A stretch of 64,000 nucleotides of DNA from Desulfofarcimen acetoxidans DSM 771. Its GTDB lineage: Bacteria > Bacillota > Desulfotomaculia > Desulfotomaculales > Desulfofarciminaceae. The translations under genes and the position numbers were made by a program. Positions 378 through 31,294 of this stretch are shown piece by piece (position 1 is the first letter of the stretch; every line of letters begins with the position of its first letter). The DNA lies in contig NC_013216.1 in the NCBI RefSeq assembly GCF_000024205.1, forward strand, positions 1,674,001 to 1,738,000, read 5' to 3'. The notes under the pieces are model-generated. The model saw only the letters and a list, made by a program, of their open reading frames with translations, was not told where the DNA came from and ran no database searches.

Positions 378-404
378 TGATTTGAAAGGGGGAAGGATGA
401 CATT

Positions 405-1685
405 ATGACACAGGTATTAAAGGCCCGGGCCGGAAAAATAACGGAAGAAATGGAAGCCGTTGCGCTGTATGAACAAGTCGATGTGGAATTTGTTAGAAAA
501 GGAGTGGCAGAGGGACGCGTTGTCATTCCCAGAAATATTAACCGTAAGCCCTTCAGATATTGCGGTATCGGGGAGGGTATGCGGGTTAAGGTCAATGCTC
601 TGATCGGCACCTCCAGCAACCGTGATGATATGGCCATGGAAGCCAGAAAATTGCAAGCAGCACAGGATGCCGGCTGCGACAGCTTCATGGACTTAAGTAC
701 CGGCTCCAACATTGATGACATGCGCAGGCAAACCTTGGACATGGCCAAGGTAGCCGTTGGCTGTACCACTATTTATCAAGCGGGACAGGAAGCCATTGAA
801 AAATATGGCAGCGTGGTAGAAATGCGTCCCAAGGATATTCTGGACAATATCGAAAAACAGGCAGCGGAAGGTATGGATTTTATGGCGATCCACTGTGCAT
901 TTAATAATTCTGTGTTGAAAGTAATGCAAAAAACAGGTCGTGTAACCTGGGTTGTCAGTCGCGGCGGTGCATTCATCACCGGCTGGATGCTGCACAACAA
1001 AAAGGAAAATCCCCTCTTTGAGCACTATGATCGTATTCTGGAGATATTAAAAGCCTATGACGTCACTCTGAGCTTGGGCGATGCCATTCGTCCCGGCGCA
1101 ACGGCAGACTCTCTGGATGGTGCTCAGATGCAGGGACTGCTGGTGCAGGGTGATCTGGCTAAACGCGCTCAGGCCGCCGGCGTTCAGGTTATGGTAGAAG
1201 GACCGGGGCATGTGCCCCTTAATCATGTAGAAGCTACCATGAAGCTCCAAAAAAGAATATGCAATAACGCGCCTTATTTTATCCTGGGTACATTGGCGAC
1301 GGATGTTGCCCCGGGCTACGACAACATTACCGGTGCCATCGGAGGTGCCTTTGCCGGTTCCTGCGGTGCAGATTTCCTCTGCTACCTGACTCCGGCAGAG
1401 CATTTGGGCCTGCCTTTGGAGGAAGATGTGCGTGTCGGCGTCATCACCACCAGAATAGCGGCACAGATTGCCGATGTAGCCAGAGGTCACAAACAGGCTA
1501 TTGCAAGAGAAAATGAAATGGCCAGTGCTCGTGTAGCCATGGATATTGACCGTCAGATCAAAGCGGCTCTGGCGCCGGATAAATTGATTGCCGCTAAGGA
1601 AAAGGGCTGCGGACAGCACTTGTGTGCAGCCTGCGGTAAAGACTGCGCTGTTCAGGAAGCCGCCCGTTATTTTGGTATCTCGTAG
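405..1685 (+). CDS. bzaB: ThiC paralogue, probable BzaB-type 5-hydroxybenzimidazole synthase subunit
   Basis: 426-residue ThiC-family radical SAM protein, full length, starting at an ATG behind a GGGGGAAGG Shine-Dalgarno. The substrate-binding core is recognisable (MDLSTGSNIDD near residue 84, MVEGPGHVPLN near 263). The C-terminal cluster motif is CAACGKDC, again C-X2-C-X3-C. Known BzaA/BzaB pairs rearrange aminoimidazole ribotide to 5-hydroxybenzimidazole, needing S-adenosylmethionine and a reduced [4Fe-4S] cluster. The gene directly follows the first ThiC paralogue and is followed by a terminator, so no bzaC-E methyltransferases are attached here. A thiamine role for one of the two copies is not excluded. 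Confidence 0.62.
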   Translation: MTQVLKARAGKITEEMEAVALYEQVDVEFVRKGVAEGRVVIPRNINRKPFRYCGIGEGMRVKVNALIGTSSNRDDMAMEARKLQAAQDAGCDSFMDLSTGSNIDDMRRQTLDMAKVAVGCTTIYQAGQEAIEKYGSVVEMRPKDILDNIEKQAAEGMDFMAIHCAFNNSVLKVMQKTGRVTWVVSRGGAFITGWMLHNKKENPLFEHYDRILEILKAYDVTLSLGDAIRPGATADSLDGAQMQGLLVQGDLAKRAQAAGVQVMVEGPGHVPLNHVEATMKLQKRICNNAPYFILGTLATDVAPGYDNITGAIGGAFAGSCGADFLCYLTPAEHLGLPLEEDVRVGVITTRIAAQIADVARGHKQAIARENEMASARVAMDIDRQIKAALAPDKLIAAKEKGCGQHLCAACGKDCAVQEAARYFGIS

Positions 1686-16729: not shown

Positions 16730-17653
16730 ATGAAACTCACCGGATTGCATATACTCTTGACCTACCGATGCACCTTTGAGTGCGACCATTGCTTTGTTTG
16801 GGGCAGTCCCTGGCAGAGCGGCACACTGTCCCTGAAACAGCTGCGAGAAATTCTGCGGCAAGCTGAAGCGGTCGGGTCGCTTGAATGGATTTATTTCGAA
16901 GGTGGAGAGCCATTTCTTTTTTACCCGGTGTTGCTGGAGGCTGTGCGAGAAGCTTCAGCCGCGGGTTTTCGAGTTGGCATTGTCACGAACGGATATTGGG
17001 CAACCAGCTTTGAGGACGCCTTGGGGTGGTTGCGTCCTTTTGCCGGCCTGGTGAGCAGCCTATCCGTAAGCAGCGATCTGTACCATTACGACGAGGTGAT
17101 AAGCTTGCAAATGAAGAACGCCACTCAGGCCGCCGAAAGATTGGGTTTGCCCATCGAAATGATCAGCATCGCCCAGCCGGAGGCGCCACAGCAGAGCTGC
17201 TCTGCGGGCCAGCCAACAGCCGCTGCTGAAGCTGCTGAAAAAAGCGAGAGTGGGATTATGTATCGCGGTCGGGCGGCTGAGAATCTCGCCATGCGGGCTG
17301 CCTGGCGGTCTTGGACGGAATTTGGCGAATGTCCTTGCGAAGACCTGTGCGAGCCTGGTAGGATTCACCTGGATCCGTTTGGGTATCTTCATGTCTGCCA
17401 GGGCATCTCTATCGGCAACCTGTTTCACCGACCTTTAAAGGAAATTTGTGCCGACTATCGTCCGAATGAGCATCCAATCATTGGTCCCCTGCTGAACGGA
17501 GGTCCGGTTGAGCTGGTGAAGCGCTACTCATTGCCTCACTTTGATGAGTATGCCGACGCTTGCCATTTGTGCTACACCGCCCGTTTCGCCTTGCGAGAGC
17601 GTTTCCCGGAGACGTTGGTTCCCGACCAGATGTATGGAACCTCTAAGTTTTAG
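16730..17653 (+). CDS. Radical SAM protein with C-terminal cysteine clusters (SPASM-like), unknown substrate
   Basis: 307 residues. The radical SAM motif C14-X3-C18-X2-C21 (YRCTFECDHCF) sits at the N-terminus with GGEP near residue 63. C-terminal cysteines (CPCEDLC, HVCQG, ACHLC) suggest a second cluster domain as in SPASM enzymes. No precursor peptide or partner is next to it. Its codon use is clearly more GC-rich than its neighbours, suggesting recent transfer. Start after AAAGGAG. I do not recognise a characterised relative. Confidence 0.7.
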   Translation: MKLTGLHILLTYRCTFECDHCFVWGSPWQSGTLSLKQLREILRQAEAVGSLEWIYFEGGEPFLFYPVLLEAVREASAAGFRVGIVTNGYWATSFEDALGWLRPFAGLVSSLSVSSDLYHYDEVISLQMKNATQAAERLGLPIEMISIAQPEAPQQSCSAGQPTAAAEAAEKSESGIMYRGRAAENLAMRAAWRSWTEFGECPCEDLCEPGRIHLDPFGYLHVCQGISIGNLFHRPLKEICADYRPNEHPIIGPLLNGGPVELVKRYSLPHFDEYADACHLCYTARFALRERFPETLVPDQMYGTSKF

Positions 17654-17855
17654 TATGGAGAAAAAGCCAGACTAGCTGACAGGAATCTTCATTTTTATAG
17701 AATGAAAAAGCACTGATTTTTACAGGGCGGTTTTTGAAAAATTATCTAAAAAAGCTAATTTTCTGTTAACTAAAATTATATGTATTGTCCACGTTGCATT
17801 TTTCAAGGTTATATAATAAAATGAAAATTAACAATTAGAGATTGGAGATGGAAAG

Positions 17856-17876
17856 ATGCGTAATTTTTCTTGCTAA
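17856..17876 (+). CDS. Putative leader peptide MRNFSC
   Basis: A six-codon ORF, ATG to TAA, with a GGAG ribosome site 8 bp upstream. It lies before the alternative RNA folds that precede the ABC-F gene. Ribosome stalling here would change the folding of the leader. No homologue is claimed. Confidence 0.45.
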   Translation: MRNFSC

Positions 17877-18020
17877 TTATATAAAGCATAATGAAATTAC
17901 GGAAACGGCGGCGGAAACCGCTTGTTTTGTTGTGCTTATGCAAGAAAGTTACTATTTCTTTTCACTCAAATAATACATCCTTGCCATGCCCCTATATGGG
18001 TCTGGCTTTGCTGTGTAATT

Positions 18021-18054
18021 AAGAGCTGTAAGAATTAACTTTCTTGCAGCTCTT
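18021..18054 (+). terminator. Attenuator terminator hairpin upstream of the ABC-F gene
   Basis: 14-bp stem (AAGAGCTGTAAGAA / TTCTTGCAGCTCTT, one G-U pair) with loop TTAACT, followed by the weakly U-rich AATTATT, 24 bp before the start codon. Its 3' arm competes with the upstream GCAAGAAAGTTA. Confidence 0.6.
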
Positions 18055-18078
18055 AATTATTCGCAGGAGGATAAAATT

Positions 18079-19566
18079 ATGTCGTTAATAAATGTTGCAA
18101 ACCTGACGTTTGCCTATGATGGCAGCTATGAAAACATAATTGAAAACGTGAGTTTCCAAATAGATACCGATTGGAAATTAGGATTTACGGGAAGAAATGG
18201 CAGGGGTAAGACAACCTTTCTCAATTTGTTGCTTGGTAAATATGAATATAGCGGTAATATTGCTGCAAATGTCAGCTTTGAATATTTTCCTTTCAAAGTA
18301 GTAAACAAGGAAAACAATACCCTTGATGTAATCAGTGATATTTTTCCGGAATATCTTCATTGGAAATTGATGCGTGAATTTTCATTGCTGGAGGTTTCTG
18401 AGAATATTTTATATCGTCCCTTTGATTCATTGTCCTACGGAGAACAATCGAAAGTGTTGCTTGCCACTTTATTTCTTAAGGAAAATAATTTTCTTTTAAT
18501 TGATGAGCCGACCAATCACCTTGACATTACTGCGAGAAAACTTGTCAGTGATTATCTCAACACCAAAAAAGGTTTTATTCTGGTATCACATGACAGAGCA
18601 TTTCTTGATAACTGTATTGATCATATTCTTTCAATTAATAAAACCAATATAGAAATCCAAAAAGGCAATTTTTCCTGTTGGTGGGAAAATAAAAAAAGGC
18701 AGGATAATTTTGAGCTTGCGGAGCACGAAAAACTTAAAAAAGGCATTCAACGCTTGTCTGATTCTGCTAAACGGACGAGTAACTGGTCGCACGAAGTGGA
18801 AAAAACAAAAAAGGGAACAAAAAATTCAGGTTCCAAGGTGGATAAGGGTTATATTGGCCATAAGGCCGCTAAAATGATGAAACGCTCCAAGTCAATCGAA
18901 ACCAGACAGCAATCTGCTATTGAGGAAAAGTCTAAACTTCTCAAAAATATTGAAGACTCCGACAGCCTGAAGATTCCTCAACTTGTTTATCATAAAATGC
19001 GACTTGCCGAGCTTGAAAATGTGTCAATATTTTATAATGAAAAGATGGTTTGCAAAGATGTAGGTTTTATTATTGAGCAAGGTGATCGAATTGCGCTTAC
19101 TGGTAAAAACGGCTCAGGAAAGTCAAGTATTATCAAACTTATTTGTAATGAAAATATAAGCTTTACAGGCACTTTCAGGAAAGGAAGTCAGCTTAAAATA
19201 TCCTATGTTTCACAGAACACGTCGCATCTTCAGGGTAATTTAGCTGGTTATGCTGTGAATAACGGGATTGAGGAGAGTCTTTTAAAAGCTATTTTAAGAA
19301 AGCTTGGTTTTTCCAGGGTTCAATTTGAAAAGGATATGTCAACTTTCAGCGATGGCCAAAAGAAAAAAGTGCTGATTGCCAAAAGTCTATGTGAACAAGC
19401 GCATCTGTATATTTGGGATGAGCCACTCAACTATATTGATGTAATTTCCCGTATACAAATCGAAGATCTGTTGCTTGAACACCAACCGACTATTTTGTTT
19501 GTAGAGCATGATAGGACATTCTGTGGGAATATTGCGACAAAGTTTGTAAATATGCATGGGCTATAG
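18079..19566 (+). CDS. ABC-F ribosomal protection protein (Vga/Lsa-like antibiotic resistance type)
   Basis: 495 residues, two ABC domains without membrane segments. Domain 1: Walker A GRNGRGKTT (~38), signature LSYGEQSKVLLA, Walker B LLIDEPTNHLD. A charged, Lys-rich linker (~200-300) is the interdomain arm that reaches into the ribosome. Domain 2: GKNGSGKSS, FSDGQKKKVLIA, IWDEPLNYID. The SYGEQ signature and short size fit the Vga/Lsa/CplR group, which dislodges lincosamides, pleuromutilins and streptogramin A. The attenuator-like leader supports drug-induced expression. Start follows GCAGGAGG. Which drugs are affected cannot be told. Confidence 0.85.
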   Translation: MSLINVANLTFAYDGSYENIIENVSFQIDTDWKLGFTGRNGRGKTTFLNLLLGKYEYSGNIAANVSFEYFPFKVVNKENNTLDVISDIFPEYLHWKLMREFSLLEVSENILYRPFDSLSYGEQSKVLLATLFLKENNFLLIDEPTNHLDITARKLVSDYLNTKKGFILVSHDRAFLDNCIDHILSINKTNIEIQKGNFSCWWENKKRQDNFELAEHEKLKKGIQRLSDSAKRTSNWSHEVEKTKKGTKNSGSKVDKGYIGHKAAKMMKRSKSIETRQQSAIEEKSKLLKNIEDSDSLKIPQLVYHKMRLAELENVSIFYNEKMVCKDVGFIIEQGDRIALTGKNGSGKSSIIKLICNENISFTGTFRKGSQLKISYVSQNTSHLQGNLAGYAVNNGIEESLLKAILRKLGFSRVQFEKDMSTFSDGQKKKVLIAKSLCEQAHLYIWDEPLNYIDVISRIQIEDLLLEHQPTILFVEHDRTFCGNIATKFVNMHGL

Positions 19567-19825: not shown

Positions 19826-21082
19826 TCAATCTTCCAACTGATCCCTTTTCAATCCGATAAGGCTTATGATCATAATAAACAGAACCAGTATGCCCGTAAC
19901 TGCGCCGCACATCAAAAAACCAATTCCCGGCCCGTATTTCTCTGTGATACTTCCGGCGAAAAGATTGCCTAAGGGAGTTGTTCCGGCAAAAGCCAGTGTG
20001 TAAACGCTCATGATTCGACCCCGGTAGCGGTTGTTTGTGTTTAGCTGGATAGTAGAGTTAACTGTCATCATGAAAATAATACTGGAAAAACCTAATACTG
20101 CGCTAATAATTAGTGTCAATATATAGAAGTGGATGAAGTTTATTGTTATGAGTAAAAGTGATAGTATAAGAGAACTAATAAATAAGTATTTTATACTGGG
20201 TCCCATTTTAGATCTAGCTGCCATCCAAAATGAGCCTGCAAGTGAGCCTAAACCGTTGGCAGATAAAAGAAAACCATATCCGTGCACCCCTTTATGCAGG
20301 GCCTTATCAGCAAAAACGGGAAAGATAACTTCCATATTCATGGCAAAGGTGCCTACTGCCAGCATGACCGCAACTGCGATTAATAATATCGGCTTAGATA
20401 AAATGTATTTAAGACCCTCAATGATACTGGCAAACACATTCTCTTGTTTTTTAGGAATACTATTACTGTCGTTTGTTATTGGCTTTGCCAGATTCAGACC
20501 TATTATTGCAGGTATAAAACTGACGGCATTAAATAAAAAGCAGAAGCTGGCGCCAAAATTAGCCATTAATAATGCGGCTATTGTCGGACCGGTTATTCTG
20601 GCTAGGTTAACTATAGCAGAATTTAAAGCAATAGCGTTAGTTAGGTCCTTTTTTCCCACAAGATCGATAAAGAATGACTGTCTGGCCGGCATATCCAGCG
20701 TGTTGGCCAATCCCATTATTGTGGCCAGAAATAAAACTTGCCAGTACCTGACATGCCCTGTCCATACCAATAAAGCCAATAAAAAAGATTGCAGCATTAG
20801 GGCTGTTTGTGTGATTAGAATAATTTTTTTCTTGGGGTACCTGTCGACAAACACACCGGCAAAGAGTGAAAATAATAGAATAGGTGAAAATTGTGCTACA
20901 CCCAAAACTCCCAGTAATAAGGCTGATTTTGTTATTGTATATACTAACCACTGTTGAGCCGCCCGCTGCATCCATGTACCCAGAAACGAAATACACTGGC
21001 CGAGCCAGAAATAGCGGAAATTTTCATTGGCCAGGGCAGGGAAGGTGTTTTTAAAATTTACTGCAATACCTTCTTTGATCAT
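19826..21082 (-). CDS. MFS exporter (MFS_3 / EntS-like family)
   Basis: 418 residues, about 12 hydrophobic segments. The N-terminal NFRYFWLGQCISFLGTWMQRAAQQWLVY and the motif A loop (VDRYPKKKIILITQ) are typical of the MFS_3 (EntS/enterobactin exporter-like) family. The substrate is unknown and no siderophore genes are nearby. The C-terminus is rich in isoleucine. Start at ATG 21082 with only a weak ribosome site. It is convergent with the ABC-F gene; the 260 bp between them hold nothing recognisable. Confidence 0.8.
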   Translation of the reverse strand: MIKEGIAVNFKNTFPALANENFRYFWLGQCISFLGTWMQRAAQQWLVYTITKSALLLGVLGVAQFSPILLFSLFAGVFVDRYPKKKIILITQTALMLQSFLLALLVWTGHVRYWQVLFLATIMGLANTLDMPARQSFFIDLVGKKDLTNAIALNSAIVNLARITGPTIAALLMANFGASFCFLFNAVSFIPAIIGLNLAKPITNDSNSIPKKQENVFASIIEGLKYILSKPILLIAVAVMLAVGTFAMNMEVIFPVFADKALHKGVHGYGFLLSANGLGSLAGSFWMAARSKMGPSIKYLFISSLILSLLLITINFIHFYILTLIISAVLGFSSIIFMMTVNSTIQLNTNNRYRGRIMSVYTLAFAGTTPLGNLFAGSITEKYGPGIGFLMCGAVTGILVLFIMIISLIGLKRDQLED

Positions 21083-30561: not shown

Positions 30562-31294
30562 CCTAATCACCTGCCAAAATTATATCATATTATAGCAGGT
30601 TTTTTAATATTAATTTAGTTTTCTAGTAACAGTTATATACCTCCTTTTTAGTAATATTTGATATAGTCACATTAGTTAGACAAATAATTTGAAATTCCTT
30701 TCATAATATATATGAAAAATAGTTATATAATATAATATTTGCAAAAGATAACATTAAAAAAATCTAGTGCTATATGGTTGTAGTACTAATTTTAACTAAC
30801 CCAAGTTTCGGTGCGGCCGGGCAAGGTCGTGTATTTTAACGGGTGGAAATCCCGTCTGGTAAGACTCTAGCCAAGTCACCAGTAGCGAGTCTTGGACTTG
30901 ATGGAGTAATTCATAGAGTTAAGCGTAGACAGGTAGGTAGTAGGCCTGAATGTGATTGAGCCCCGTAATGGGCAAACGGGAAGGTTGACGGTTTCGAAAC
31001 TCCGGAAAACTATATCTTGGTACGCGATATGGCGAGTGTATTGAGACTTCCTCGGGGTCTAAGAGCCAGGCATGCTATACAATGATAACACGGAAACCCG
31101 GGAGACCCTATGTGTTCTTCTGCTTAGGAGTATGACCTACAAGCGATATAAAGTGAGGAAGTCAAATGGCGCGTAGGGAGTCGGATCACTGCATATTGTA
31201 CCGATGACACAGGGTAATGCCTATCGAGGGAAGGCAGTGACATGATATTGGCTTTGACAAGGACACACTTGTCACACACAGAGGTGAAAAACAG

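Follow-up and report, generated by a model that had tools for sequence, protein, structure and literature searches.

What governs the expression of the sole Lsa-type resistance gene of Desulfofarcimen acetoxidans DSM 771, and to which signal does it respond? The gene lies at 18079-19566 on the forward strand of the 64,000 nt stretch of DNA analysed here (the window), and encodes a 495 aa ribosomal protection protein of the ABC-F type (ribo_prot_ABC_F, 467.4 bits; cut-off 380). In an NCBIfam scan, ABCF_Lsa_all was by far the best family for this protein, matching over the full length with 749.6 bits against a curated cut-off of 750; of the relatives with a solved structure, the best is Lsa(A) (PDB 7nhk), and the next best match within the 4.55 Mb genome is 26% identical. 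Lsa-type proteins counter lincosamides, pleuromutilins and streptogramin A. A leader RNA occupies the gap between lsa and the preceding gene on the same strand (16730-17653), which encodes a radical-SAM protein partially similar to peptide epimerases of the YydG type and is more GC-rich than lsa in its middle part. Just 3' of lsa is a convergent MFS transporter gene (19826-21082, reverse strand), weakly Mef-like in NCBIfam, and at 30846-31067 on the forward strand of the window Rfam RF02005 recognises domains of a group II intron (157.8 bits).

A preliminary description of the gap proposed a leader-peptide attenuator extending from 17656 to 18078. A leader is present, but 17656-17793 does not form part of the regulated RNA: a likely sigma-A-type promoter (TTGCAT, 17 nt spacer, TAAAAT), recognised by comparison with relatives, lies on the forward strand at 17794-17822, as do all the leader elements that follow it, and the transcript would start at around 17829. 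The window's own promoter match is modest, and a promoter scorer chose another pair there; most of 61 relatives have a sigma-A-type promoter with a 17 nt spacer, ending approximately 18-20 nt 5' of the Shine-Dalgarno (SD) site of the upstream open reading frame (uORF), which is above the level in shuffled sequences. The six-codon ORF MRNFSC and its ribosome site were found as first described: the uORF (ATG CGT AAT TTT TCT TGC TAA), the proposed antibiotic sensor, extends from 17856 to 17876, and is preceded at a spacing of 8 nt by a GGAG sequence (17844-17847) that is near-invariant in 59 leaders. A 41-codon ORF starting at 17848 was rejected as a candidate, since GGAG abuts its ATG and the frame is not kept in relatives.

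The SD site and uORF codons make up segment 1 (17845-17873), the 5' strand of an anti-antiterminator, which in the minimum-energy fold pairs with 17940-17968, within segment 2 (17939-17968; GCAAGAAAGTTAC...CTTTTCACTC). There follow a conserved intervening hairpin (17971-18015) and an intrinsic terminator hairpin (18016-18059), the arms of which (18016-18034 and 18041-18059) form 19 bp rather than the 14 bp originally reported, comprising 18 Watson-Crick pairs and one G.U around a 6 nt loop. The first 13 nt of segment 2 (TGCAAGAAAGTTA, 17939-17951) are complementary at 13 of 13 positions to TAACTTTCTTGCA in the terminator's loop and 3' arm (18036-18048), bearing out the perfect match noted earlier; no complement of 13 arose in 5,000 dinucleotide shuffles of the upstream stretch, the longest per shuffle being 11 at most and 6.1 on average. 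Segment 2 would be partnered by segment 1 in the off state and, through these 13 nt, by the terminator in the on state. The preliminary description had recognised the antiterminator and terminator pairings (2:4 and 3:4), which exclude one another as it held and both of which keep pairing across relatives, and had overlooked that between the uORF and segment 2 (1:2). Segment 1 mimics the terminator strand, making this a classical attenuator design, and the sequence supports a requirement of the off state for the hairpin of uORF and segment 2, an anti-antiterminator that would couple the position of the ribosome to termination. By analogy with SL-2 of vmlR (PMC9226507), the intervening hairpin is likely to be a pause hairpin and the apex of the antiterminator.

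A protein search of 84,980 species genomes identified at least 80 Lsa relatives. Among the matches listed, about 69 of 80 homologues have the leader ahead of them, and about 10 of 80 close homologues were without it in the stretch read. In Bacillota the majority of the lsa homologues detected have it, among them those of clostridia, Paenibacillales, Brevibacillus and others, and it also occurs on lsa(E) plasmids. In an alignment of 59 dereplicated leaders, 91.6% of the off-state pairs are formed, versus 40-54% when slid, with helices 1-4, between segments 1 and 2, being 92-94% paired. Terminator helix 9 is 99.4% paired, with a compensatory exchange between G-C and A-U at one pair in 26 of the 59, and the antiterminator is 96.7% paired, compared to 38-57% when slid. 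A covariance model built on the leader (R1), the structure of which does not include the antiterminator, matched 13 of the 113 genomes searched in the order, 24 of 398 from Bacillota as a whole and 168 of 296 from Paenibacillales. The order and Bacillota searches gave 34 forward matches, including the window, and 31 of these lie before an intact or nearly intact lsa-family gene; the exceptions are two decayed lsa stubs and one gene with a nucleotidyltransferase domain. Weak matches on the reverse strand (E of about 1e-4 to 1e-3) were attributed to the palindromic nature of the hairpins and left out.

Covariation was assessed in 37 leaders from the R1 searches, mostly outside the set used for the model. 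The alignment was fitted to the off-state structure, and kinship alone can lift sequences above shuffles in the absence of structure, so that most weight falls on the slid control. Both partners vary at 39 of 57 pairs, versus 24.3 in shuffles (0 of 500 as high) and no more than 26 when slid. The covariation value is 0.304, compared to about 0.10 or less when slid, and helices 5-6, in the intervening hairpin, covary at every pair. The antiterminator is 95.2% paired in these divergent leaders, with compensatory exchanges, for instance GCAGGAAAG with CTTTCCTGC. At the level of sequence, the observation is thus confirmed: a complete predicted ribosome-mediated transcription attenuator lies ahead of the Lsa-family ABC-F gene of the window. 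An ordinary terminator belonging to the upstream radical-SAM gene, accompanied by an accidental uORF and exerting no regulation, would fit the position between two same-strand genes, but can be given almost no credence when the leader has its own conserved promoter, is conserved across genera and shows covariation in mutually exclusive helices. The strongly conserved structure, which includes a stretch 3' of segment 2 in the 59 leaders, is also in keeping with a riboswitch or T-box-like element, where a small molecule or tRNA would switch the fold without any ribosome. This is very unlikely, as the window leader has no Rfam match at the gathering threshold, with only chance-like matches below it, and as all 101 leaders compared keep a uORF start, only ever ATG or GTG, and its SD site at an almost fixed distance from segment 1. 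No Rfam family reached its gathering score either in the window leader or in the L216, L242, L080 and L127 loci when scanned whole.

The whole leader folds with -89.7 kcal/mol (z -8.5), a value that none of 200 shuffles equalled, the minimum-energy structure consisting of segment 1 paired with segment 2, then the small hairpin, then the 19 bp terminator. Growing transcripts were folded at equilibrium, ignoring the polymerase footprint. Without a ribosome, the probability of pairing between segments 1 and 2 is 0.98-1.0 until 18044, 0.61 at 18048 and 1.0 again from 18052, and the terminator wins. When a ribosome on the uORF start codon was simulated by blocking 17842-17873, the probability of the antiterminator was 0.97 at 18042 and 1.0 at 18044-18048, where no terminator formed; the terminator equals the antiterminator at 18052 and beats it from 18056. 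Because the full terminator prevails at equilibrium even with the ribosome in place, a kinetic effect or polymerase pausing would be needed, and the antiterminator, which forms before the terminator, would have to act while the polymerase passes the T-tract.

Termination is predicted at about 18060-18066, downstream of the premature 3' end at about 18055 that was at first expected. The T-tract of the window is mediocre (TTAATTATT) and its terminator is absent from the list produced by a consensus terminator scan, such that termination may be lower in this copy; the T-tracts of relatives are better. This weakness would suit a predominance of translation attenuation, with frequent readthrough and control at the SD site of lsa (AGGAGG, 18065-18070, forward strand), perhaps by pairing of ATCCTT with the GAGGAT of that site. 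The ATCCTT motif, which lies 3' of segment 2, is common in relatives, and cplR and vmlR combine both layers of control (PMC10201436, PMC9226507). However, a strong terminator and T-tract stand directly before the gene in most relatives, and lsa(E) begins about 150 nt past the terminator, too far for simple SD masking, leaving a dominant role for translation attenuation unlikely. In the window, the SD site of lsa is located outside the terminator hairpin.

What, then, would a ribosome on the uORF sense? The uORF start occupies the matching place in each of the 101 leaders (ATG in 96, GTG in five), with its first base placed 15-21 nt ahead of the point where segment 1 ends, and modes at 16 and 18. 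This distance approximates the +16 toeprint of the 30S initiation complex on vmlR (PMC9226507), and a ribosome frozen at initiation would hence cover segment 1 to about its end. The uORF is a start codon followed at once by a stop codon ('start-stop') in 47 of 98 leaders, thus encoding only Met; the remainder have 2-8 codons with little in common, a few of which read segment 1 in a different frame. Most Bacillales relatives have the start-stop form, as do about 57 of 70 further Paenibacillales leaders (a few of them counted despite an earlier in-frame ATG caught by the pattern). On the Lsa tree, the start-stop uORFs cluster in a single large group of Bacillales, within which short peptides have reappeared several times; parsimony gives 10 changes on this quick tree, in which many branches are weak and the starred branches force only one.

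Were the drug instead to stall the ribosome inside the uORF, on specific codons of MRNFSC, in the way that macrolides act on erm and msrD leaders, the peptide would itself be the sensor. MRNFSC and close variants recur in clostridia, and the MRK variant of the Bacillus subtilis vmlR uORF induces less than other tripeptides (PMC9226507), but such peptide-specific arrest is improbable given the number of leaders with Met alone or with dissimilar residues, and the SC shared by longer uORFs is accounted for by the constraint that pairing places on TTTCTTGC. Of the leader-peptide attenuator first proposed, the attenuator logic is upheld by the comparative evidence, whereas the MRNFSC peptide, in whose place many leaders have no more than a start-stop, is unlikely to be what the switch responds to. 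Conservation of the stop is not independent proof of translation, as the codon after ATG pairs with segment 2 (GUAA with UUAC, tolerating G.U); variation between TAA, TGA and TAG was likewise set aside as such proof, since all three fit this pairing. Lincosamides, pleuromutilins and streptogramin A hit initiating ribosomes, and the stalling of ribosomes at start codons by retapamulin has been documented (PMC9226507, PMC9841429). Together, the start geometry, the variability of the peptide and the action of these drugs at initiation make initiation arrest, rather than peptide-specific arrest, the best-supported candidate for the signal.

The favoured reading, considered very probable, is that lsa is controlled by a ribosome-mediated transcription attenuator sensing the arrest of translation initiation. 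With no drug present, ribosomes would complete the uORF and depart, segment 1 would pair with segment 2, and the terminator would form, ending transcription just 5' of lsa. A lincosamide, pleuromutilin or streptogramin A would freeze the initiating ribosome on the uORF start codon, where its footprint would mask segment 1; segment 2, left free, would then capture the emerging loop and 3' arm of the terminator, permitting readthrough into lsa.

The same switch is found elsewhere. On the Enterococcus faecium plasmid pJEG050 it lies, unannotated, about 150 nt 5' of lsa(E) (L127:218-456, 83.9 bits) with the uORF MYNFSC, and related DNA is present in 108 plasmid records. Among 40 further Paenibacillales copies examined, 12 are followed by cfr rather than lsa, four scanned genes being identified as Cfr with 612-629 bits (Cfr equivalog cut-off 550). 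All 12 of these switches have a start-stop uORF, and remnants of lsa between switch and cfr at two of the 12 loci point to capture of the switch after decay of lsa. A second leader lies between the switch and cfr (L206, L210, L213, L215, L216, L219, L221, L223, L226, L236, L237 and L242), encoding a conserved peptide of approximately 36 residues (MFEVVNVHVN...SIDRCT; MFEVVNVHVNRSLSVGTVHDQTKRMPEHYPSIDRCT) in 11 of the 12 and apparently frameshifted in the twelfth, and ending at a hairpin able to mask the cfr SD site (TTTTCTCC with GGAGAAAA). The 36-residue peptide had no match in the plasmid collection. This leader is possibly a second sensor, for other drug classes.

Other loci depart from these arrangements. 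In the Paenibacillus lautus group (L080, L081 and L082), lsa is found without the start-stop switch, and is preceded by a leader peptide (MTELEVVDVYVN...) that resembles the second cfr leader and has a terminator-like hairpin of its own on its 3' side. In L125, a diverged version of the switch (39.6 bits), at 1501-1743 on the minus strand, precedes a gene (393-1436, minus strand) for a 347 aa nucleotidyltransferase-domain protein, perhaps another resistance gene. In L172 and L173 an intact switch stands before a truncated lsa stub, indicating that a leader can persist once its gene has decayed and can then be taken over by a neighbouring gene. On balance, the pattern of sequences favours a widespread attenuator family in which initiation arrest would be sensed by a peptide-free start-stop, and in which Paenibacillales would have moved the switch from lsa to cfr, adding a tandem peptide-coding leader.

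If so, lsa and cfr, the resistance spectra of which overlap, would share one sensor. The presence of an unannotated switch before plasmid-borne lsa(E), and of the switch before cfr in Paenibacillales, bears on inducible resistance that is missed by uninduced susceptibility tests. Whether the sequence of the uORF matters when the inducer is an initiation inhibitor is an open question for ABC-F genes (PMC10201436), to which these leaders bring a natural experiment, half of those compared having no uORF sequence beyond the start codon. The default minimum of a uORF finder is three codons (PMC10219788), meaning start-stop uORFs are missed, and such sensors may go unnoticed elsewhere.

Antibiotic riboregulators have been the subject of earlier Term-seq work. 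The same attenuator logic has been experimentally proven for both vmlR and cplR (PMC9226507, PMC10201436). The vmlR leader of B. subtilis, like that of the window, has a short uORF within an anti-antiterminator, a pause hairpin, a terminator and an antiterminator, the last forming when ribosomes stall at uORF initiation under lincomycin or retapamulin, and it controls an ABC-F conferring PLSA resistance (PMC9226507). It differs in encoding a tripeptide, MIN (variants MDN, MDK and MRK), where lsa leaders often have a start-stop, and in possessing an extra SD-sequestering hairpin (PMC9226507); the likeness drawn here is one of architecture. Similarly, the cplR leader of Clostridioides difficile sequesters a short uORF (the three-codon MRI) in a 5' hairpin, and retapamulin or lincomycin relieves premature termination, through both transcription and translation attenuation; however, cplR belongs to the ARE1 subfamily of ABC-F, and its terminator sequesters the main SD site, which in the window lies outside (PMC10201436). 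For LsaA, of the same protein family as the window gene, a uORF encoding MAGN was predicted, although this covered close relatives only (80% identity cut-off), concerned a different uORF and included no RNA model (PMC10201436). Control of the pSCFS1 cfr gene through uORF stalling and an occluded ribosome-binding site has been proposed, resembling the second Paenibacillales cfr leader; the passage on this control describes no start-stop transcription attenuator (PMC8752094). Ribosome profiling has also yielded putative start codons with a stop directly or almost directly behind them (PMC11955535 and E. coli studies cited there), but those listed in PMC11955535 are internal, out-of-frame sites and not, as in lsa leaders, sensors in a conserved attenuator. 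In the open-licence literature, no prior description was found of start-stop attenuators or of lsa(E)/cfr regulation in Paenibacillus. The kind of attenuator is therefore already known, in the form of the vmlR architecture; what appears, from the sequences compared, to be new is the dispensability of the uORF peptide, the start-stop sensor and the sharing of the switch with cfr.
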